NCBI GenBank assembly: GCA_947454705.1 | Contig: CANGKZ010000015.1 | Span: 1 to 64,000, forward strand | DNA from: Verrucomicrobiota bacterium | GTDB lineage: Bacteria > Verrucomicrobiota > Verrucomicrobiia > Limisphaerales > UBA9464 | Direction: 5' to 3' | DNA: 64,000 nt | Shown here: in pieces, positions 20,597-30,888 of the stretch | How the letters are laid out: every line of letters starts with the position of its first letter | Position numbering within the stretch: the first letter of the stretch is position 1 | The notes under the pieces: model-generated | Database searches by the model: none | What the model saw: the letters and a program-made list of their open reading frames with translations, nothing else | Told to the model about the DNA's origin: nothing | Made by a program: the position numbers and the translations under genes

Positions 20597-22036
20597 ATGC
20601 GATTCCGTTGCCTGCTCGGTCTTCCCTGCGTTCTGGCCGTGATGGTCTGGACCGGATGCGACTCCTCCTCCTCGAAGGTCGAAGCCCAATGGCGCTTCGT
20701 GGGATTGACCACCCTGTCGCAGCAAACCAATGCCCCGGCGGCCGCGGCCGTTCTTGCCCGGCCGGAGTTCCCGGTCATGCACAAGGCGCTCGTTTCCCGC
20801 GTCGCGACAAGCCTCTGGGAACTGGCCAACGCCAACACCAATCTACCCGCCGCCACCCGCACCGCGCTGGAACCGGTCGCGGCGGATCTGATCGATCGCC
20901 TGAGCCTCGGCCAGGTGCTCCGCGGCAGCTCCGGCAAACGCGAATGGGTGGTCGCCATCCAGGGCGATGCCGCCCGCGCCAAGGCGTGGGAAGCCGGCTG
21001 GAACGCCCTGTTCCAAGCCCGCAACGGAACAGCCCCCAAGTCCGCCGTTCAATTCCAGGCCGGTTGGATCGTGGCCGTTTCCGATGCGTCATTGACCCCG
21101 ACCAAGGCGGTGATGACCACCCTCGCGCAGATTCCGGTCGCCCCTCAGTCGGTCTTCCACCTCGACGGCAACGTGGACGGAGTGGCCCGCTACACCCTTG
21201 ATGCGGCGGCACGCGATGGGGCGATCCGAACCCAGGGCGAATGGAACCAGCAGACCGCCCTTCCTTCCACGCTCCCCGCCTGGGAGCGCCCGGCCTTCAT
21301 CCGCGATCCCCTCGTCCATTTCACCGCAGCCCGCGGCATCAACGCGTGGATCGAACAATGGGGTGGCCTGAAATCGGTCACCGGCACGGACGTGCCAAAC
21401 CAGCTGTTCGTCTGGGGAAAAGCGGCCGCCACCACCAACACCCCTCCGCTCCAATCCTACGTGGCCGCCCGGATTTCCAATCCCACCGGATGGGTGGAGC
21501 GCACCTTCAAGGCCCTGCAGGTGTTCTACCCCGCGCCGCCCGCGGCCCCGATTTGGTCCGGTCATCTCGGCCTCGACACCGCACAAAACCAGGTCGCCAT
21601 CGCCGGCTTTCCTCCCGTGCACCTCGCCCCGGGCACCGATGGCGATCGGAACTACGTGGTCCTCGGAATGATGCCCCAGGGAAATTCCCGGCTCACCTTC
21701 CCGAAGGAACTCGCCGCCCAAGTGGAACAACCCGACATCGTGTTCTACCAATGGGAGAATGTGGGCGAAGCCATGAGCAACTTCAGCGCGGCGTCCGGGG
21801 CGTTCGACATCCTTCGGCTGCGACTCCCCTCGGTTAAACGTCCCGGCATCGCCTGGGCCCTCTCCGCGTTGAGTGGCATGCAAGATTGCGTGACCGAAGC
21901 CCGCAAGACCGGTTCGTCTCAAGTCACCCTCAAGCGCAAATCCCCCGCCGGACTAAGCGCTGCGGAATTCCTCCTGCTGGCCCGCTGGATCGATGGGGAT
22001 GCCCCGCCCCGCCCCAAGAAGCCTTCGACCCGCTAA
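20597..22036 (+). CDS. lipoprotein of unknown function
   Basis: 479 aa from the ATG at 20597. LGLPCVLAVMVWTGC ends in a lipobox with Cys20, followed by DSSSS, so it should be lipidated; Ser at +3 and Asp at +2 are compatible with inner-membrane retention in enterobacterial rules, which may not apply here. The rest is a soluble Ala/Pro-rich protein with no motif I recognise; it has the length and pattern of planctomycete/verrucomicrobial DUF3352-like proteins but this is only an impression. Divergent from the LplA-like gene; pdxJ starts 73 bp downstream and may share its transcript. Confidence 0.75.
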   Translation: MRFRCLLGLPCVLAVMVWTGCDSSSSKVEAQWRFVGLTTLSQQTNAPAAAAVLARPEFPVMHKALVSRVATSLWELANANTNLPAATRTALEPVAADLIDRLSLGQVLRGSSGKREWVVAIQGDAARAKAWEAGWNALFQARNGTAPKSAVQFQAGWIVAVSDASLTPTKAVMTTLAQIPVAPQSVFHLDGNVDGVARYTLDAAARDGAIRTQGEWNQQTALPSTLPAWERPAFIRDPLVHFTAARGINAWIEQWGGLKSVTGTDVPNQLFVWGKAAATTNTPPLQSYVAARISNPTGWVERTFKALQVFYPAPPAAPIWSGHLGLDTAQNQVAIAGFPPVHLAPGTDGDRNYVVLGMMPQGNSRLTFPKELAAQVEQPDIVFYQWENVGEAMSNFSAASGAFDILRLRLPSVKRPGIAWALSALSGMQDCVTEARKTGSSQVTLKRKSPAGLSAAEFLLLARWIDGDAPPRPKKPSTR

Positions 22037-22109
22037 ATCCGGCGTATCCCGAATTCGGTTTTCGTTTTCATTTCCGTTCCAGTTCCCGTTTTTGAATTCC
22101 CGCCCTTCC

Positions 22110-22859
22110 ATGCTGAAACTTGGCGTCAACATCGACCACGTCGCGACCCTTCGCCAAGCCCGGTACCGCACCGCGCCTCCGGGCCGACCGGTGGAACCCG
22201 ATCCCGTCGCCGCCGCCCTGGCCTGCGAACGCGCCGGCTGCCACGGAATCACCGCGCACCTGCGCGAGGACCGACGCCACATCATCGACAACGACATCCT
22301 GAGGCTTCGCGATTCGATCAAAACCCGCCTCAATTTTGAAATGGCCAACACCCCGGCCATCGTCGAATTCGCGCTGAAGGTGCGCCCCGGAATCGTCTGC
22401 CTCGTTCCAGAAAACCGCGAGGAAGTCACCACCGAGGGCGGGCTCAACGTGGTCGCGCAGGAATCCGCACTACGGGAGTTGCGCAAGCGAATGAACGATG
22501 CCGGCATCGAGGTCAGCCTGTTCATCGATCCGGATCCCGCGCAGGTCGAGGCCTCGGCGCGCGTCGGCGCCCAATTCATTGAACTCCACACCGGCCGCTA
22601 CGCCGATTTGTATCATCAGAAAGCAGCGCGGAACGAAGAGATCCAGCGACTCGTTCAAGCCGCCACCCGCGCCCACGAATCCGGACTTCAGGTCAATGCC
22701 GGCCACGGACTCACGGTGGAAAACCTGCAACTCATCCACCTCGTTCCCCACCTCGTAGAACTGAACATTGGCCACAGCCTGATCAGCCGCGCCGTGTTCG
22801 TCGGAATCGAAACCGCCGTCCGCGAAATGCTTGCCGCCATGCAGGGCTACCCGGGCTGA
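22110..22859 (+). CDS. pdxJ: pyridoxine 5'-phosphate synthase
   Basis: 249 aa from the ATG at 22110 (MLKLGVNIDHVATLRQAR). PdxJ condenses 1-deoxyxylulose-5-phosphate with 3-amino-2-oxopropyl phosphate, the ring-closing step of the DXP-dependent vitamin B6 pathway. The hallmark GVNIDHVATLRQAR, GITAHLREDRRHI, VCLVPENREE (catalytic Glu), FIELHTGRYAD and VNAGHGLTVEN blocks are all intact, and LNIGHSLISRAVFVG closes the barrel. Length is normal. It is in the cytosol. B6 is used by the DegT aminotransferase and the KamA-like enzyme in this window, though no regulatory link is visible. Confidence 0.97.
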   Translation: MLKLGVNIDHVATLRQARYRTAPPGRPVEPDPVAAALACERAGCHGITAHLREDRRHIIDNDILRLRDSIKTRLNFEMANTPAIVEFALKVRPGIVCLVPENREEVTTEGGLNVVAQESALRELRKRMNDAGIEVSLFIDPDPAQVEASARVGAQFIELHTGRYADLYHQKAARNEEIQRLVQAATRAHESGLQVNAGHGLTVENLQLIHLVPHLVELNIGHSLISRAVFVGIETAVREMLAAMQGYPG

Positions 22860-23415: not shown

Positions 23416-25427
23416 CCCGACTTCCGCTACTGGAGGCGGGAAAAAGAATGTTTTCGGGGATTTCGGAAAAGCCGGCGGTGCAACCCGTTGAAAACAAAGG
23501 GGTGGTTTCGGTGCCGTCCTCGAAACGCCGTGTAGTGGCGACCCAACCCCTTCTCGGAAGCTCCCCGTGGTGGTAAGTTGCCCGTTGTGTTTCTGAAGTG
23601 CAGCACCCGGCGCAAGGATGGCAAAGAGCATCGCTCCTGGTCCGTCGTCGAGAGTCATCGCTACTCCGACGGCAAGGTCGCCCAGCGCCACGTCCTTTAT
23701 CTGGGCGAGATCAACGATTCCCAACGACGGGCGTGGGAGAAATCCATCTCCGTCTTCGACGAGGACCGCGGCGACCATCGCCAGATCGCCCTTTTCCCCT
23801 CCGACCGTTCCCCCGAAGCCGGCGGTGCCGAGGCCGTCCACGTGCGTCTGGATTCCCTGCGGCTTCTGCATCCCCGCCAGTGGGGCGCGTGTTGGCTGGG
23901 CGACGAGCTTTGGCGCACGCTTGGCCTCGACACGTTCTTTGCCTCCCGGCTCCCCCGCAGCCGCGAGGGCACCGATTGGGAAAAGGTCCTGCGCATCCTC
24001 GCCATCTACCGACTGCTGTCGCCCGGTTCGGAATGGCGTCTTCATCGCCAATGGTTCGGCACCACCGCGCTGGCCGATCTCCTCGGCGTCGACGGACGTG
24101 CCGTCCAGGACGACACCTTGTACCGCTGTCTGGATCTGCTGCTGCCGCACAAGGAGGAGCTTTTCAAGCATCTGCGCGGCCGCTGGAGCGATCTGTTCGG
24201 GGTCCGCTACGAGGTGCTCCTCTACGACCTGACGAGCACCTACTTCGAATGCGACCAACCCGACGACGAGACGGATCCCCGGCGCTTCGGCTACAGCCGC
24301 GACCGCCGCGGCGACTGCGTCCAGGTGGTCGTCGCGCTGGTGGTCACGCCCGAGGGATTGCCCTTGGCGTACGAGGTGTTCCCCGGCAACACCGCCGACA
24401 AAACGACGCTGCGCGGCATGATCGAGACCATCGGCACCCGCTACGGGGCGGCCGAGCGGATCTGGGTCATGGACCGGGGCATTCCCACCGAGGAAGTCCT
24501 CGAGGAGTTGCGGGCCGACGCGACGTCGCCCGTGCGGTATCTGGTCGGCACTCCCAAGGGCCGCCTGAGCCGCCACGAGGCGGCCTTGGCCCAACTGGAA
24601 TGGAAAGAGGTGCGGCCGCGACTGCGGGTCAAGCTGCTGCCCTTCGAGGGCGAGGTCTACGTCCTGGCCGAAAGTCGGGATCGCGCGGGCAAGGAGCGCG
24701 GGATGCGCCGGCGCAAACTCAAGGCCTATTGGAAGCGGCTCGGGGAATTGCGCGGGCAAAAGGGCACGCGCGACGATTTGCTGCGCAAACTCGGCGCGGC
24801 ACAGGAGCGGGCCGGACGCCAGGCCAGCCAGTTGGTGGCCGTGGGCGTCGCCGCCGACGGCACGTTGAGTTATGGCCTCCAGCGGGAGAAGCTGCGGCAG
24901 GCGCGACAACGCGAGGGACGCTACCTGCTGCGCACGAATCTGGAGGCCACGGATCCGGAACTCGTCTGGCGTTGCTACATGCAGCTCTGCCACGTGGAAG
25001 AGGCTTTCCGCACCCTCAAGGGAGATCTGGGACTGCGGCCAATCTTCCACCAGAAGGCGACGCGGATCGAGGCCCACCTCTTCGTGGCCTTCCTGGCGTA
25101 TTGCCTGTCGATCACGTTGCGCCAGCAGTTGCGGCCCCTCGCGCCGGGGCTGATGCCGCGGGTGGTTTTCGAGAAACTGGCCACGATCCAAATGCTCGAC
25201 GTGCTCGTGCCGACGACCGACGGCCGTGAGCTGCTCTTGGTCCGCCGAACCGAACCGAACCCAGACCTGGAACAGCTGCTGGAGCGCCTGGGCCGCCCCC
25301 TGCCACCACAGCCGCCGCCCAAAATCCGAACCGCTCCCAGCGCGTCGATGTAGTGGCGACCTTTGCACCCTTCGCTTCGTTTACCAACAACTTGCAAACC
25401 CAGACGCTGCCAGTAGCGGAAGTCGGG
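23416..25427 (+). mobile_element. complete IS4-superfamily insertion sequence, IS1634-like, 2,012 bp
   Basis: The ends are perfect 18-bp inverted repeats: CCCGACTTCCGCTACTGG at 23416-23433 and its complement at 25410-25427. They are flanked by a 4-bp direct repeat, CTAA, at 23412-23415 and 25428-25431, which I read as the target duplication. It encodes one intact DDE transposase. The right-hand CTAA contains the stop codon (CTA on this strand, TAG on the other) of the sigma factor gene, so the element landed exactly on that stop without changing the protein. Perfect ends, a preserved duplication and an intact gene argue for recent insertion. Four bases is short for classical IS1634 (5-6 bp) and closer to IS701, so the family is provisional. 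Confidence 0.92.
23587..25353 (+). CDS. transposase, IS4 superfamily (IS1634-like)
   Basis: 588 aa from the GTG at 23587 (a TTG at 23578 is the alternative). The N-terminus KEHRSWSVVESHR...VAQRHVLYLGEIND is typical of long IS1634-type transposases. The catalytic acids sit in LLYDLTSTYFE (about residue 214), IWVMDRGIP (about 296) and VEEAFRTLKGDLGLRPIFHQ (about 471); the last has the spacing of the Y-x2-R-x3-E-x6-K region of IS4 elements, with R and K present. No frameshift or internal stop, so it is probably active. It cuts and pastes the element by hydrolysing at the terminal repeats. Confidence 0.95.
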   Translation: MFLKCSTRRKDGKEHRSWSVVESHRYSDGKVAQRHVLYLGEINDSQRRAWEKSISVFDEDRGDHRQIALFPSDRSPEAGGAEAVHVRLDSLRLLHPRQWGACWLGDELWRTLGLDTFFASRLPRSREGTDWEKVLRILAIYRLLSPGSEWRLHRQWFGTTALADLLGVDGRAVQDDTLYRCLDLLLPHKEELFKHLRGRWSDLFGVRYEVLLYDLTSTYFECDQPDDETDPRRFGYSRDRRGDCVQVVVALVVTPEGLPLAYEVFPGNTADKTTLRGMIETIGTRYGAAERIWVMDRGIPTEEVLEELRADATSPVRYLVGTPKGRLSRHEAALAQLEWKEVRPRLRVKLLPFEGEVYVLAESRDRAGKERGMRRRKLKAYWKRLGELRGQKGTRDDLLRKLGAAQERAGRQASQLVAVGVAADGTLSYGLQREKLRQARQREGRYLLRTNLEATDPELVWRCYMQLCHVEEAFRTLKGDLGLRPIFHQKATRIEAHLFVAFLAYCLSITLRQQLRPLAPGLMPRVVFEKLATIQMLDVLVPTTDGRELLLVRRTEPNPDLEQLLERLGRPLPPQPPPKIRTAPSASM

Positions 25428-26600
25428 CTAAATTGTAGCGCCCACCGAAGCCTGCTTCGGCGCCGGCCCCTTTCGAGCCGTGCGCACTTTTCCAACCGCC
25501 GGGGCACTCGGAATCTGGACCGCTTCAAACGATTCGATCTGCTCGCGAAGCTTGGCCAGCGCCAGATTCTGCAGCTGACGAATCCGCTCACGAGTCACTC
25601 CAAATCGCTGACCAATCTCGTCCAGCGTCTTCTCCGGTCCGCCGGAAAGACCAAACCGCTCCTGCAATATCGAAAGCTCACGGGGCTGCAACCCGGGCAG
25701 GAACCGGTGAACCATTTCGTGCACGGTGCGCTGTTCCAAATCCTCATACGGATCCAACGTGTCCGAAGCCGGGACCACATCCGCCAACGGACTGGAATCC
25801 TCGTCACCCAAAGGAGCATCGAGGGAGGCCGTCTTCATCGACGCGCGCATCCACAAGCGCACCTTCTTCACGGGCGCATCGAGCTCTTCAGCCAATTCTT
25901 CCTCGGTCGCCTCACGGCCGAACAGTTCACGCAATTCGTGGGCCGCTCGGCGCATCCGGTTCACCTTGTCCACCAAGTGCACCGGCAGCCGAATGGTCTT
26001 CGACTGATTGGCCAGCGCGCGCTTGATCGACTGCTTGATCCACCACGCTCCGTAGGTGGAAAGCTTTCCGCCCTTGGCCGGATCAAACCGCTCCACGCCC
26101 TTCATCAGGCCAATGTTGCCTTCGTTGATCAGGTCCAGAAGCGGCAATCCATAGCCCTCGTAATCGCGGGCAATCTTGATCACCAAGCGAAGGTTCGCAC
26201 GGATCATGTGTTCGCGGGCTGCGGCATCCCCGCGCTTGATGCGGGCCGCCAGAGCATTTTCCTCAGGCACCGACAACAGCGGAACCTCCACCGCATCGCG
26301 CAAATACAGGGAGAGTGCCGACCGGGGCTCGACATGGGACGCAGGCGCTTCCGAGGCCACACCGGCACGGGGGACATGAACTTCGGACTTCGCGCTGGTC
26401 GCAACCTTGGATGCTTCGCCGTTCGACGACTGCGCCGTCTGCTTGGGCTTGGCCGCACCCCTCGCCAAGCGGCGCGGGGCTCCAGTGCTGGTCTTTCGCA
26501 CGCGGCGAACCACGGAAACGGTGGACTTCGACTTGGCTTGGAACAACCCACCGACGGAGGCTGCGGTTTCCATTTCGGGATCTAAGGGGGCGACATTCAT
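25428..26600 (-). CDS. sigma-70 family RNA polymerase sigma factor (RpoD/RpoS-like, no region 1.1)
   Basis: 390 aa. After a basic, low-complexity N-terminus of about 90 residues comes region 1.2 (ALSLYLRDAVEVPLL), region 2 (MIRANLRLVIKIARDY, DLINEGNIGLMKGVERFDP, FSTYA-like LSTYGAWWIKQSIKRAL), region 3 (ATEEELAEELD) and region 4 with the -35-binding helix (TLDEIGQRFGVTRERIRQLQNLALAKLR). A tail of about 35 residues follows. No acidic 1.1 or long non-conserved region, so it is a group 2-like alternative factor rather than the main RpoD. Its TAG stop lies inside the target duplication of the insertion sequence. A CarH-like photoreceptor regulator is divergent from it. Confidence 0.93.
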   Translation of the reverse strand: MNVAPLDPEMETAASVGGLFQAKSKSTVSVVRRVRKTSTGAPRRLARGAAKPKQTAQSSNGEASKVATSAKSEVHVPRAGVASEAPASHVEPRSALSLYLRDAVEVPLLSVPEENALAARIKRGDAAAREHMIRANLRLVIKIARDYEGYGLPLLDLINEGNIGLMKGVERFDPAKGGKLSTYGAWWIKQSIKRALANQSKTIRLPVHLVDKVNRMRRAAHELRELFGREATEEELAEELDAPVKKVRLWMRASMKTASLDAPLGDEDSSPLADVVPASDTLDPYEDLEQRTVHEMVHRFLPGLQPRELSILQERFGLSGGPEKTLDEIGQRFGVTRERIRQLQNLALAKLREQIESFEAVQIPSAPAVGKVRTARKGPAPKQASVGATI

Positions 26601-26743
26601 AAGAAATTATCCAAGACCGCGTTCACATGTGCAGAGTGTCCACATGTCGAAGTCTTGTCAATCTCTTGTTTAACTATCTGCAACTTCTCAATGATCCAGT
26701 TGATGTTTGTCTAACTTCAGTCTATTGAATCCACCTGTTAACG
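26601..26743. promoter_or_regulatory. divergent promoter region between sigma factor and CarH-like regulator
   Basis: Toward the sigma gene, a perfect TTGACA (-35) lies on the minus strand at 26656-26661, but no good -10 follows at 16-18 bp. The palindrome ACATGT occurs inside that spacer (26642-26647) and again at 26625-26630, over the expected -10/+1. Toward the regulator, TTGATG (26700-26705), a 17-bp spacer and TATTGA (26723-26728) form a plausible promoter. Three related sequences, TTGTTTAAC (near 26666), TTGTCTAAC (near 26707) and CTGTTAAC (near 26735), are candidate operator units. Binding by the regulator is inference. Confidence 0.6.
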
Positions 26744-27715
26744 ATGCCTGAACTTCGACATACCATTCAATCGGTCGCCGAACGAACCGGCCTGACCCCT
26801 CACGTGATCCGCGTCTGGGAGAGGCGGTATTCGACCGTTCAGCCGACCCGATCGGAGGGCAATCAGCGTCGGTACTCCGACGAAGATGTCCGCCGGCTCC
26901 GTCTCCTGAACCGAGCCACCCAGCGGGGTCACAGCATCGGGACGATTGCCCATCTGGGAACGCCGCAGCTGGAAATGCTGGCCGGCGACGAACCAGCCCT
27001 TGTTGCGTCACCCACCCCGTTGGCTGACCGGGAGGAAAACGACCTGGTGCTGCACGACCGCCCGTATGAATCCGACGCCGCCGAGCGTTGGTTGAAGGCC
27101 GCCTCTGCGGCGGTGGCCTCGATGGATGGGCAACAACTGGAACAGATTCTCGAACGCGGTGCGGTGGAGCTGGGCGTCACCGCGCTCCTCATTCGTGTGG
27201 TCGCCCCCTTGGTGGAGCAGATCGGTGAGGACTGGCAGGCGGGCAAACTGCAGATTGCCCACGAGCACATCGCATCCGCCGTGCTCCGCACCCAGCTCGG
27301 CACGCTGAGTCGCCCTATTTCCCTTCACCCTTCAGCACCGGTGATTCTCACCACGACTCCCGCCGGACAGCTTCATGAACTCGGCGTGGTGTTGGCCGGA
27401 GCGCTGGCAGCCACGCAGGGGTGGCGGGTGATTTATGCGGGGCCCTCGTTGCCCGCACCGGAAATCGTCGCTGCCGCCCAGCGCAATTCAGTCCAGGCGG
27501 TGGCCCTGAGCCTGGTCCACCCGGCAGATGATCCCATGCTGCCCGAGGAACTGATCCGCCTCCGCCGCATGCTGCCACCCACCATCCCGCTGCTCGTCGG
27601 AGGAAGGTCGGCCGGAGCGTACGGCGCGGTGCTTGATCGAATTGGCGCGATCCGCGTGCGCGGCCTCCAGGATTGGATGGCGCAGCTGTCTCAGCTCCGC
27701 CGCCCGCCGGTTTGA
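26744..27715 (+). CDS. MerR family regulator with cobalamin-binding domain (CarH/LitR-like photoreceptor)
   Basis: 323 aa. Residues 5-72 are a MerR winged helix (HTIQSVAERTGLTPHVIRVW, RYSDEDVRRLRLL). Residues 110-190 match the helical cap of B12 photoreceptors: W164-x9-E174-H175 in EDWQAGKLQIAHEH is the exact CarH signature that caps the adenosyl group. Residues 198-320 are the Rossmann B12 domain, with His211 in GQLHELG as the expected lower axial ligand (the usual acidic residue two before it is Gln here). In CarH, light breaks the Co-C bond and releases DNA. The divergent neighbour is a sigma factor, as in the LitR/LitS arrangement of Streptomyces. It overlaps the 3' end of the kinase gene by 25 bp. 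Confidence 0.87.
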   Translation: MPELRHTIQSVAERTGLTPHVIRVWERRYSTVQPTRSEGNQRRYSDEDVRRLRLLNRATQRGHSIGTIAHLGTPQLEMLAGDEPALVASPTPLADREENDLVLHDRPYESDAAERWLKAASAAVASMDGQQLEQILERGAVELGVTALLIRVVAPLVEQIGEDWQAGKLQIAHEHIASAVLRTQLGTLSRPISLHPSAPVILTTTPAGQLHELGVVLAGALAATQGWRVIYAGPSLPAPEIVAAAQRNSVQAVALSLVHPADDPMLPEELIRLRRMLPPTIPLLVGGRSAGAYGAVLDRIGAIRVRGLQDWMAQLSQLRRPPV

Positions 27716-30700
27716 GTCGGCACGGCAGATTCCATCGCTGAGCCGTCGCTCGCCGGCTGGGGTTGCGGATCCGCCTGCCAGATTCGAATCGCATCGAGCC
27801 CGCCAGAAACCAGCGTGTCCGCGTCGCGGAATGCCAGCGACGTGATCCCCTTGCTGTGGCGATGAAAGGTGGCCAGGCGGAGACGGGCACGGGCGTCCCA
27901 AATTTGGAGCGCCCCATCCAGACTTCCGCTGAGCAGACGATCCCCGGCCGGTGAGTAGACGACGCACAACACACCGCTGGTTTGCGTTTCCAGCGTCGCC
28001 ACCTCCGCGCCGGATCTGACGTTCCAAAGTTTAATTGTCCCGTCGGTGCAGGCCGAGGCGAGCTCGGAGGAATCCGGCGAAAAGGCCAGCCCCGGCACCT
28101 GGCTTCGATGCGCCCCGAGCAGGCGCGTGCCCCCGCGGGAAAGGTCGTTGAGCTGAACCTTTCCGTGACTGTCCGACGACGCGAGCCATCGATTGTCCGG
28201 CGAAAACACATGAATTTCCGCCGCCCCAACGAAGTTCTGGATCACGCGTCCCGATTCCACATCCCAGACCTGAATCCGGTTCGTGTCCGACCCCAGCCGA
28301 TGCATCGAGCTTCCCAAGCCAACGGCAAGAAGGCGCCCGTCCGCCGAAAAACGAACCGTTGCGATGGAATTGGACACCCCGGAGTTCCAATTCCGAAGCG
28401 CTCCGTTGGAAAGGTTTTGAATCGTGACCGTGCCATCGGTGGACACGTAGGCCAGCCGCTGGGTTCCCGGATGGAAGGTGCGCGAGCGAAGATTCGCGTG
28501 ATTGGTGTCGGTGATCTGCGCGATCGGTGCCGCAGTTCCGAGGCGGTGCAGTTCCCATTTTTGATCCGGAGTCGAAGACCACCAATGAAGCCCGTCGGCC
28601 AACTGCTCCGACCAAAGGATTCCCTTGTCCAACGCCGCCGCGGGAAGCGTGCGCTCAATCGCCGTTCGCACGCTCCAAAACCGCGAGTCTCCGTTGCTCA
28701 GGATGGAGACCAGTGAGGATCCATCCCGGGTGAAAATCAGTCCGATGGGCACGGAGTCTCGACTGCGCAGCGTTCCCGCCGGCGCTCCCGTGGCCGCATC
28801 CCAGATTCGCACCGTGCGGTCCCGCGAGGACGTCGCCACCCACCGGTTGTCCTCGGAAACCGCAAGCCCCTGAACCACATCGGAATGCCCGCGGAGCACC
28901 GCAAGTTCCTGTCCTGTCTTCAGGTCCCAGATCCGCGCCGTCTTGTCCACGCCGGCCGACACCATGCGGCGTCCGTCCGGGAAAAACTCGAATCCGGTGA
29001 TTAACTGAACCCAGCCCGGTTCGAACCCATGACCCGCCAGCGCCAGCGGCGGCTCAGCCCCGGCGACATCGCGTACCTCCAACGAGGCATCATCGCGGGC
29101 AATCGCCACACGGGAGGCGTCGGAGTTGAACGTCGGAAGGCTCAATCGGATCGACTTCGGCAATTCCAAAAGCTGCTTCATGCCCGCCCCGTTCAATCCG
29201 CATCGAACCAACGAAGTGTTCACGAACCGGCCATCCACCTTCGACACCGCGAGAACCAATCCTGCGGAGTTTCGTTCGAAGGCAAGATTCAGCACGCCGC
29301 CGTCCACCGTGAACCGGGATTCCTCGCGCCAGCCCACGCGATCCACCACCCGGACCACCGTCTGGGTCGTCACCAAATCCACCCGGGCCACTGCGACGCG
29401 ACGCTGATCCAGTGAGATGCATAAACGCCCCGGCTGATTGGTCGGCCCCGACTCCCCGAGCTCACGCGCAGCGCCCGTCACGCGATTCGTCATCCGCTGC
29501 GACATCAGGGTTCCATCCGCACGCAACGCCACCAACTCGTGTCCGTCCCCGACCAGCGCCAGATCCACCAGCGGAATCGTCCCACGCGGCAACCCCTCTT
29601 CATCGTCCCCGCGACTTTGCGCCGCAAGATAACGCCACTCCCATCCCCGCAGATCCGTCGTTCCCGCACCGGGTGCCGACGCGGAGGAAACAGAGGCGGA
29701 TTTCGAGGTCGGCATCGAGGGGCTCAACCCCTGCAACAAATCGCGCGCCCGCAGGCTGTCGGAACTCTCCACCGCCTGGGCCGCCTCCTGCAAATGGGCC
29801 GCGTAGAGCTGACGCCGCACCCGCAACTCGTTGGCCTCGGCTCGACGCTGCTGGATCTCCGCCGTCTGACGTGCCTGGTCGATGCGATACGCCGCAATGG
29901 GCGAACCGATGGCGATCACCAGCAGCAGCAAAAAAGTCGCCGCCGCCAAACCGGAGATGGCCGGATGCCGCCGTGCAAAGCGCCAGCCGCGTTCGATCTG
30001 TGTGATGCGCCGCGCATGAATGGGTTCGTCGCGCAGGAAACGATGGAGCTCCTCGGTCACCTCCTGCATCGATTGATAGCGCCTCCCCGGACGCTTCTCG
30101 AGGCACTTCAGGCAGATGGTTTCCAAGTCCACCGGCACTCCGGGTCGGAGCGCGCGCGGACGCACCGGGTCGAGCTGCGTCACCGCACGGATCGTGTCGT
30201 CCAGCGTTTCTCCACGGAAGGGAGGCCGATCCGTGAGGAGGTAATAAAGAATGGCACCGAGACCGAACACGTCGGTGCGCGGACCGATGGAGCCGAAGCG
30301 ATCCGACGCCTGCTCCGGCGCCATGAAATTGGGGGAACCTGCGCCCGATGCAGGATCCGACAAGCCCCCGGCGGTTGCACCGATCTGTCGCGCAAGACCG
30401 AAGTCCGTGATCTGGGGCTCCCCCCGTTGATCCATGATCACGTTCGCCGGTTTCAGGTCGCAATGGGTCACCCCCCGCGAATGCGCGTACTCAATCGCTG
30501 CTGCGATCTTGTGCGCGTAAAATGCCGCCTTCTGCGCAGACACCATTCGTGAACGAACAAACGCCGAGAGATTTTCACCCTCGACGAATTCCATCGAATA
30601 GAAGTGATGCCCCTCGGCCTCGCCCACTTCGTAAATGCCGACGATGTTCGAATGATCGAGAGTCGCTGCAGCGCGCGCCTCCGACATGAGGAGTTCGGTC

Positions 30701-30888
30701 CGCACCGCCTGGGTGCCGGAATGCTCGTGCAGCATCTTCACCGCGCACAAGCGATCGAGGCCGGGTTGGCGCGCCTTGAAGATCACCCCCGCACCACCGC
30801 GCCCGAGCTCTTCCAGAAGCTCGTACCGTCCAAAGCGCCTGGGCAGCGATCCCGAGAAGGGGTCCGGGGATGACGGAGTTGAATCCAT
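27691..30888 (-). CDS. membrane Ser/Thr protein kinase fused to a WD40 beta-propeller
   Basis: 1,065 aa. Kinase domain residues 21-285: LGRGGAGVIF (ATP loop), AVK with Lys51, HCDLKPANVI with Asp144, DFG at 162-164, APEQ. The residue before the catalytic Asp is Cys, not Arg (HCD instead of HRD), so this is a non-RD kinase, and activation-loop phosphorylation may not be needed. One membrane span lies at about 313-335. The outer part (about 380-1060) has WD40 repeats (for example ARIWDLKTGQELAVLRGHSD, IRIWDAATGAPAG, LQIWDARARLRL), a protein-binding or sensing propeller. This architecture is common in Planctomycetes and Verrucomicrobia. Substrates unknown. Confidence 0.94.
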   Translation of the reverse strand: MDSTPSSPDPFSGSLPRRFGRYELLEELGRGGAGVIFKARQPGLDRLCAVKMLHEHSGTQAVRTELLMSEARAAATLDHSNIVGIYEVGEAEGHHFYSMEFVEGENLSAFVRSRMVSAQKAAFYAHKIAAAIEYAHSRGVTHCDLKPANVIMDQRGEPQITDFGLARQIGATAGGLSDPASGAGSPNFMAPEQASDRFGSIGPRTDVFGLGAILYYLLTDRPPFRGETLDDTIRAVTQLDPVRPRALRPGVPVDLETICLKCLEKRPGRRYQSMQEVTEELHRFLRDEPIHARRITQIERGWRFARRHPAISGLAAATFLLLLVIAIGSPIAAYRIDQARQTAEIQQRRAEANELRVRRQLYAAHLQEAAQAVESSDSLRARDLLQGLSPSMPTSKSASVSSASAPGAGTTDLRGWEWRYLAAQSRGDDEEGLPRGTIPLVDLALVGDGHELVALRADGTLMSQRMTNRVTGAARELGESGPTNQPGRLCISLDQRRVAVARVDLVTTQTVVRVVDRVGWREESRFTVDGGVLNLAFERNSAGLVLAVSKVDGRFVNTSLVRCGLNGAGMKQLLELPKSIRLSLPTFNSDASRVAIARDDASLEVRDVAGAEPPLALAGHGFEPGWVQLITGFEFFPDGRRMVSAGVDKTARIWDLKTGQELAVLRGHSDVVQGLAVSEDNRWVATSSRDRTVRIWDAATGAPAGTLRSRDSVPIGLIFTRDGSSLVSILSNGDSRFWSVRTAIERTLPAAALDKGILWSEQLADGLHWWSSTPDQKWELHRLGTAAPIAQITDTNHANLRSRTFHPGTQRLAYVSTDGTVTIQNLSNGALRNWNSGVSNSIATVRFSADGRLLAVGLGSSMHRLGSDTNRIQVWDVESGRVIQNFVGAAEIHVFSPDNRWLASSDSHGKVQLNDLSRGGTRLLGAHRSQVPGLAFSPDSSELASACTDGTIKLWNVRSGAEVATLETQTSGVLCVVYSPAGDRLLSGSLDGALQIWDARARLRLATFHRHSKGITSLAFRDADTLVSGGLDAIRIWQADPQPQPASDGSAMESAVPTQTGGRRS

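Follow-up and report, generated by a model that had tools for sequence, protein, structure and literature searches.

A class I LitR/CarH-like regulator of the MerR type, a putative operator of 11-bp direct repeats and a divergent group-2 sigma factor form a real, conserved module in Verrucomicrobiota, a variant of the LitR/LitS kind. We consider it probable that the MerR protein is an AdoB12-binding, light-sensitive repressor of the CarH/LitR type (class I) that acts on the sigma gene and on itself. A first-pass annotation had proposed a CarH/LitR-like AdoB12 regulator adjoining an RpoD/RpoS-like sigma factor, and sequence, family searches, relatives and operator support this proposal. The window, the whole stretch of DNA analysed here, comprises 64 kb of contig CANGKZ010000015.1 from a Verrucomicrobiota bacterium (GCA_947454705.1). 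The two genes lie in it as follows.

26744 to 27715, plus strand: MerR/B12-binding regulator P0001, class I LitR/CarH-like by domain and structure searches, 323 aa
25428 to 26600, minus strand: sigma-70 factor P0002, group-2 (RpoD/RpoS-like), 390 aa, divergent from the regulator

P0001 is the only protein of its genome matched by MerR_1. Its DNA-binding domain (residues 7-71), four-helix B12-binding_2 domain (118-187) and Rossmann B12-binding domain (201-307) all score above the respective Pfam cut-offs. By these predicted domains it has the class I layout among the five LitR classes listed in PMC9758184. The nearest solved structures are 3whp ('probable transcriptional regulator') and 5c8d ('CarH'), both with E values of about 1e-28, followed by CtMerR (8jbs, 5.6e-15, aligned with residues 1-258), two cobalamin-binding proteins (1e-10) and methionine synthases (about 1e-6). 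The CarH equivalog NF052513 is the top NCBIfam model but scores 122 bits against a cut-off of 400, and for this reason we do not name P0001 CarH itself.

The residues named in the first-pass annotation, W164-x9-E174-H175 and H211, are indeed present and correspond to W131, E141-H142 and the lower axial ligand H177 of TtCarH. Light-responsive cobalamin domains have been described by a signature of GxxW, EH, GxxH and GxxxP (PMC11796333, 2024), which is complete in P0001 (G161-W164, E174-H175, G208-H211 and G233-P237). Among 81 family representatives, our own protein included, the signature is complete in 75, and W164, E174 and H211 are present in all 81. These representatives were drawn from 95 rows, of which three (a truncated copy of the own protein and partial or distant sequences) were dropped, and loci shorter than 230 aa never entered the residue counts. 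TtCarH His132, in contrast, is replaced by Gln165, a replacement on which the first-pass annotation was silent. According to PMC10442372, His132 forms a bis-His light state and is needed for disassembly, the H132A variant remaining mostly tetrameric in the light, whereas an earlier report cited there disagrees. Since His132 is replaced, the TtCarH-type bis-His switch is unavailable to P0001. Across the 81 representatives this position is occupied by Arg in 43, Gln in 15, His in 8 and other residues in 15. CtMerR (8JBS/8JBT) and SasPcob share the four-part signature with P0001, and PMC11796333 describes both as light-responsive with Arg and Gln, respectively, at position 132; AbDPcob also has no His there. 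Judged from the residues kept, light sensing by P0001 is plausible, though not via the textbook bis-His switch.

As the first-pass annotation had stated, the divergent neighbour belongs to the sigma-70 family and is of the larger, RpoD/RpoS-like type. P0002 contains sigma-70 regions 1.2, 2, 3 and 4 from residue 95 on, while its N-terminal 90 or so residues lie mostly outside the alignments. RpoS and RpoD are its top-scoring models, yet both stay under their cut-offs. The NCBIfam model that it does pass, TIGR02937 'sigma70-ECF', is a broad superfamily model described as sigma-70 family, which presumably does not mark ECF factors alone. With all four regions in place, P0002 is not of the ECF type. 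Sigma region 3 was found at four other places of the genome, among them a 706-aa open frame at C30 that we take as the primary sigma factor. P0002 is separate from it and resembles a primary sigma in regions 1.2 to 4, which defines a group-2 factor.

The intergenic region between the two genes holds the following elements.

26645 to 26672: putative operator 1, three tandem 11-bp direct repeats (TGTCGA, TGTCAA, TGTTTA; TnnACA on the sigma strand) starting at 26645, 26656 and 26667
26656 to 26661, minus strand: -35 box TTGACA of the sigma promoter, within the middle repeat of operator 1
26633 to 26638, minus strand: candidate -10 box CACTCT of the sigma promoter, weak, read from the sequence, 17 bp from the -35 box
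26708 to 26724: putative operator 2, TGTCTA (26708) followed 11 bp later (26719) by aGTCTA, a copy with one mismatch
26700 to 26728, plus strand: candidate merR promoter TTGATG-17-TATTGA, read from the sequence, overlapped by operator 2
26625 to 26647: two ACATGT words, at chance level and not conserved, the second overlapping the first repeat of operator 1

The triple of operator 1 has one match in 64 kb at no more than one mismatch, with 0.01 expected. In Thermus and Bacillus, CarH binds 11-bp direct repeats of the form nnnnTnnACAn that are arranged in tandem, and the -35 element may fall within a repeat (PMC9304148). Read on the opposite strand, TnnACA becomes TGTnnA, and the repeats of the window fit this published motif. 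We compared 48 pair regions, that is 49 listed pair loci minus one duplicate, which represent part of the pair-bearing genomes. A de novo word count upstream of the paired regulators returned TAGACAA/TTGACAA words as enriched. Repeat spacing peaked at 11 bp (71 TGTYNA pairs against 0.13 in the control), and one strand carried most of the repeats (229 against 30 sites). Two or more tandem repeats of the published motif were found in 37 of the 48 regions (control mean 0.3, maximum 3) and at least three in 15 (control 0.00), whereas 11 regions had no exact tandem pair. Within the coding sequence of the regulators tandem repeats occurred in 0/48 cases on the same strand and 1/48 on the other. Controls were first-order Markov resamples for the spacing and tandem-repeat counts and mononucleotide shuffles for the word count. 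Among regions preceding unpaired regulators of the order, 17 of 21 carried tandem repeats; these 21 are a subset of 32, and by the TGTYNA count a tandem pair is present in four of the remaining 11 (L044, L046, L047, L051). By the same count the unpaired L017 and L018 have none.

The sigma -35 box described as perfect in the first-pass annotation was recovered as TTGACA at 26661-26656 on the minus strand. It is exact in 41 of the 48 regions, and in 35 of these a -10 box placed 17 bp downstream retains A as its second base. The ACATGT palindromes that had been placed over this promoter did not hold up as operators: five occur in the window against 7.9 expected, only 4/48 related upstream regions contain one, the window's own counted, and the conserved element is instead the set of 11-bp direct repeats TGTnnA. 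Exact repeat pairs occur at the place of operator 2 in a number of relatives, and its position over the candidate merR promoter makes it a candidate for autoregulation. A consensus promoter scan of 26560-26800 reported one other weak site and neither of the two proposed promoters, and no Rfam element reached the gathering threshold in the window. A tandem nnnnTnnACAn operator overlapping a promoter, as in class I LitR/CarH systems, and a sigma promoter carrying a site for the regulator, as in a LitR/LitS-type cascade, are both predicted here.

In the mechanism that we propose, AdoB12-loaded oligomers of the regulator would occupy the 11-bp direct repeats in the dark, both those at the sigma -35 box and those at the regulator's own promoter, and would thereby repress the two genes. 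Green or blue light would break the Co-C bond and loosen the oligomer, so that the group-2 sigma factor and the regulator would be made. Acting on promoters at other places of the genome, the sigma factor would then direct a response to light or photo-oxidative stress. MerR proteins are often activators, and P0001 might likewise activate the sigma promoter. The Streptomyces system offers a precedent for this, as activated LitR is described to promote litS transcription (PMC12705666). Nevertheless, repeats that lie on the sigma -35 box and across the candidate merR promoter take the position of a CarH repressor site as described in PMC9304148, and we regard activation as unlikely.

The cofactor that P0001 would need for repression is probably within reach of the organism: its genome encodes a PduO-type adenosyltransferase, with which AdoB12 could probably be made from cobalamin, while our search of the same genome for a CobA/BtuR-type adenosyltransferase found none.

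Conservation of the gene pair was a check named beforehand in the first-pass annotation, and the pair proved to be conserved. We searched 145 genomes of the order, the own genome included, and scored the regulator as present at E<=1e-40. It occurs in 79 genomes (46/50 of the own family and 33/95 outside), and in 57 of these 79 a sigma gene is divergent and adjacent (38/46 in the family and 19/33 outside), leaving 22 with a regulator that has no adjacent sigma. Adjacency was judged from the match places of the regulator and sigma searches or from fetched loci; the count includes G038 and G048, in each of which one gene is fragmentary or truncated at a contig end, and G086, where about 1 kb separates the genes, and leaves out G102:C13, where a degraded copy adjoins a sigma fragment. 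Four genomes of the own genus are without the regulator, namely G003 and G005 (both 95% complete), G004 (89%) and G001 (54%). The top sigma scores in G003, G004 and G005 reach only 1e-97 to 1e-102, compared with 1e-141 or better in the pair-bearing genus mates, and G001 has no sigma match. With the regulator missing and sigma scores weak or nil, the two genes look to have been lost together in these genus mates. In a quick tree the regulator-adjacent sigma factors fall apart from the non-adjacent group-2 paralogs, with 4 label changes against 24.3 after shuffling. This tree holds 47 adjacent, 24 non-adjacent (the primary sigma entered twice) and 4 separated rows; it has no bootstrap, and long branches make its details unsure.

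The titles of 32 named loci read Verrucomicrobi- in 22 cases; the others are Akkermansia, Gemmatimonadetes (2), Planctomycetaceae, Proteobacteria, Abditibacteriaceae, Hydrogenedentota, GN15, Nanopelagicales and a plain bacterium. Some of the loci with titles other than Verrucomicrobi- are perhaps binning errors or transfers. Two Gemmatimonadetes MAGs (L047, L049) carry a related regulator with a divergent, more distant sigma factor (37-38% identical), in L047 with upstream 11-bp repeats, and partnership with a sigma factor may thus extend beyond Verrucomicrobiota.

Three further genes flank the pair in the window.

21993 to 22859: pdxJ
23578 to 25353, plus strand: DDE transposase gene (PF01609), 591 aa, between pdxJ and the sigma gene
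27691 to 30888, minus strand: Ser/Thr kinase-WD40 repeat fusion, 1065 aa, convergent with the regulator gene, whose end it overlaps by 25 bp

In five relatives (L032, L034, L037, L058, L062) the gene directly behind that for the sigma factor is a pdxJ homologue, and the transposase was therefore likely inserted between the two genes in the own lineage. L032, L034 and L058 have similar kinase-WD40 genes on the downstream side of the regulator.

How many sites the regulator would serve was addressed with a stringent two-repeat pattern in 22 genomes of the own family. It gave seven matches, six of them in pair intergenic regions and one at G014:C190, and a control pattern gave two. The only exact match in the own genome is the pair intergenic region. 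An extra site in this genome, C35:43327, appeared in a scan allowing at most one mismatch; a reversed control gave two forward matches and one reverse match, so the site is indistinguishable from chance and we rejected it. An adjacent pair exists in 18 of the 22 genomes, and the stringent pattern missed 12 of these 18 known operators. Because the scan catches operators of like quality about once in three and at most one further site was seen in 22 genomes, it argues for few or no further operators per genome; weaker ones would be missed. By this pattern count, a single direct target of the regulator is likely. In its fuller form, this reading sees a light module conserved in Verrucomicrobiota, with a B12 photoreceptor whose direct control is confined essentially to one gene of the genome, that of the group-2 sigma factor (plus its own), so that light would re-program RNA polymerase globally and not a single carotenoid operon. 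Given the 12 missed operators, we hold this reading at a lower level, as a tentative proposal with somewhat less than even chances.

Sigma genes that have become separated from the regulator vary in their upstream repeats. The unlinked sigma gene of G035 keeps a repeat run (L117:2699-2749) and that of G019 at least a repeat pair; in these genomes the regulator would act in trans. Two runs, with three and then two repeats in tandem, can be seen upstream of the G035 gene (L117:2699-2860), which by eye lies downstream of a same-strand gene reading like peroxiredoxin. The separate sigma genes of G018 and G024 (G018:C4 and G024:C6; L119, L120) have no tandem repeats and these genomes carry only the unpaired type of regulator, so this sigma factor may have been freed from regulator control.

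A link to light comes from the neighbours of the pair in relatives, which were viewed at 27 loci, some of them on the same contig. In four distinct relatives from three families (L080, L095, L098, L099), the sigma gene is succeeded by a phytoene-desaturase-like gene of the same orientation. With 521 and 520 bits, the genes of L080 and L099 exceed the cut-off of the CrtI family (238 bits), while the gene of L098 was identified by Pfam only and that of L095 by clustering alone. Unpaired regulators of the same tree lie near crtI in L042, L051, L076, L087 and L102 and near phytoene synthase in L051. The module may have arisen from an ancestral operon of the sigma gene and crtI that this operator governed. 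In the window itself, the pair has no carotenoid gene next to it. Other unpaired regulators lie near genes for an FAD oxidoreductase (L092), an SDR (L069) and a fasciclin protein (L090). Recurring by eye beside unpaired regulators are fasciclin-like (L042, L077, L084, L086, L090, L104), SDR-like (L069, L096) and polyketide-cyclase-like genes (L081, L087, L089, L104), of which Pfam confirmed the kind only for L090, L069 and L104. It is possible that such neighbours form a direct light regulon.

Outside the own family, photolyase is found in 29/33 genomes with the regulator and in 21/62 without it (Fisher p=3.5e-7, weak or fragment matches in G082 and G086 counted as present), and the association persists with one genome per family (16/20 against 14/39, p=0.002). 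Within the own family there is no clear link (41/46 with and 3/4 without the regulator), and photolyase and PF00494 enzymes are retained in G003, G004 and G005, genus mates in which the pair is missing. Tandem repeats are found upstream of the photolyase gene in 0/20 genomes, the own one included, and we therefore rejected the idea that the regulator controls this gene directly. Occurring in 142/145 genomes, the squalene/phytoene synthase family PF00494 is uninformative as a co-occurrence marker.

These neighbours bear on the possibility that P0001 senses the level of AdoB12, repressing the sigma gene when AdoB12 is plentiful and thus reporting cobalamin status or oxidative loss of B12, with light playing no physiological part. 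The same domains and operator logic would serve such a sensor, and the Gln in place of the residue that stabilises the bis-His light state of TtCarH would suit it. On the other hand, the full light signature, crtI beside the sigma gene or the regulator in relatives and the co-occurrence with photolyase outside the own family all point to light, and the light-responsive SasPcob and CtMerR do without His at position 132 as well (PMC11796333). We therefore think it improbable that P0001 is such a level sensor. A B12-independent regulator that keeps the fold and senses light by another route is very unlikely: M. xanthus CarA functions without B12 although its B12-binding motif is retained, but it is described as having no Trp of the Wx9EH motif (PMC9304148), whereas W164, E174 and H211 are invariant in the P0001 family. 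We accordingly retain the light-sensitive, AdoB12-binding repressor as our preferred reading.

The first-pass annotation aptly named Streptomyces LitR/LitS as the nearest parallel: in S. coelicolor, the AdoB12-binding MerR regulator LitR acts on the litS promoter, and sigma-LitS then directs light genes such as crtE (PMC12705666). Unlike P0002, with its regions 1.2-4, LitS is named an extracytoplasmic-function sigma factor in a reference title of that article. CarH of Thermus, Bacillus and myxobacteria resembles P0001 in its domains, the Wx9EH motif, the axial His, the tandem 11-bp TnnACA repeats and the -35 box inside a repeat, but the CarH targets described are carotenoid genes, in contrast to the putative targets of P0001, the sigma gene and itself; position 132 and the missed NCBIfam cut-off are further differences. 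The class II LitR proteins of Pseudomonas (PplR, PmlR) respond to light and are associated with genes for photolyase, SDR and FAD oxidoreductase (PMC9758184), the latter two of which also neighbour unpaired relatives of P0001. They differ in that only the four-helix domain is kept, and PmlR2 is described to work with a LOV protein (PMC9758184). A literature search found neither CarH photoreceptors in Verrucomicrobiota nor, among the titles and abstract openings listed, CarH/LitR with a group-2 sigma factor; its coverage leaves out most subscription journals, which makes it weak evidence of novelty.

Verrucomicrobiota are widespread and mostly uncultured. B12 photoreceptors described in the literature act mainly on carotenoid genes, whereas the module presented here would place such a receptor in control of a group-2 sigma factor, and does so across many genomes. 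Since exact candidate operators are supplied, light control of transcription in this phylum becomes directly testable. In addition, the family is a natural set of putative B12 light sensors in which position 132 is mostly not His, and such a set would be useful for asking how light is transduced without bis-His ligation.
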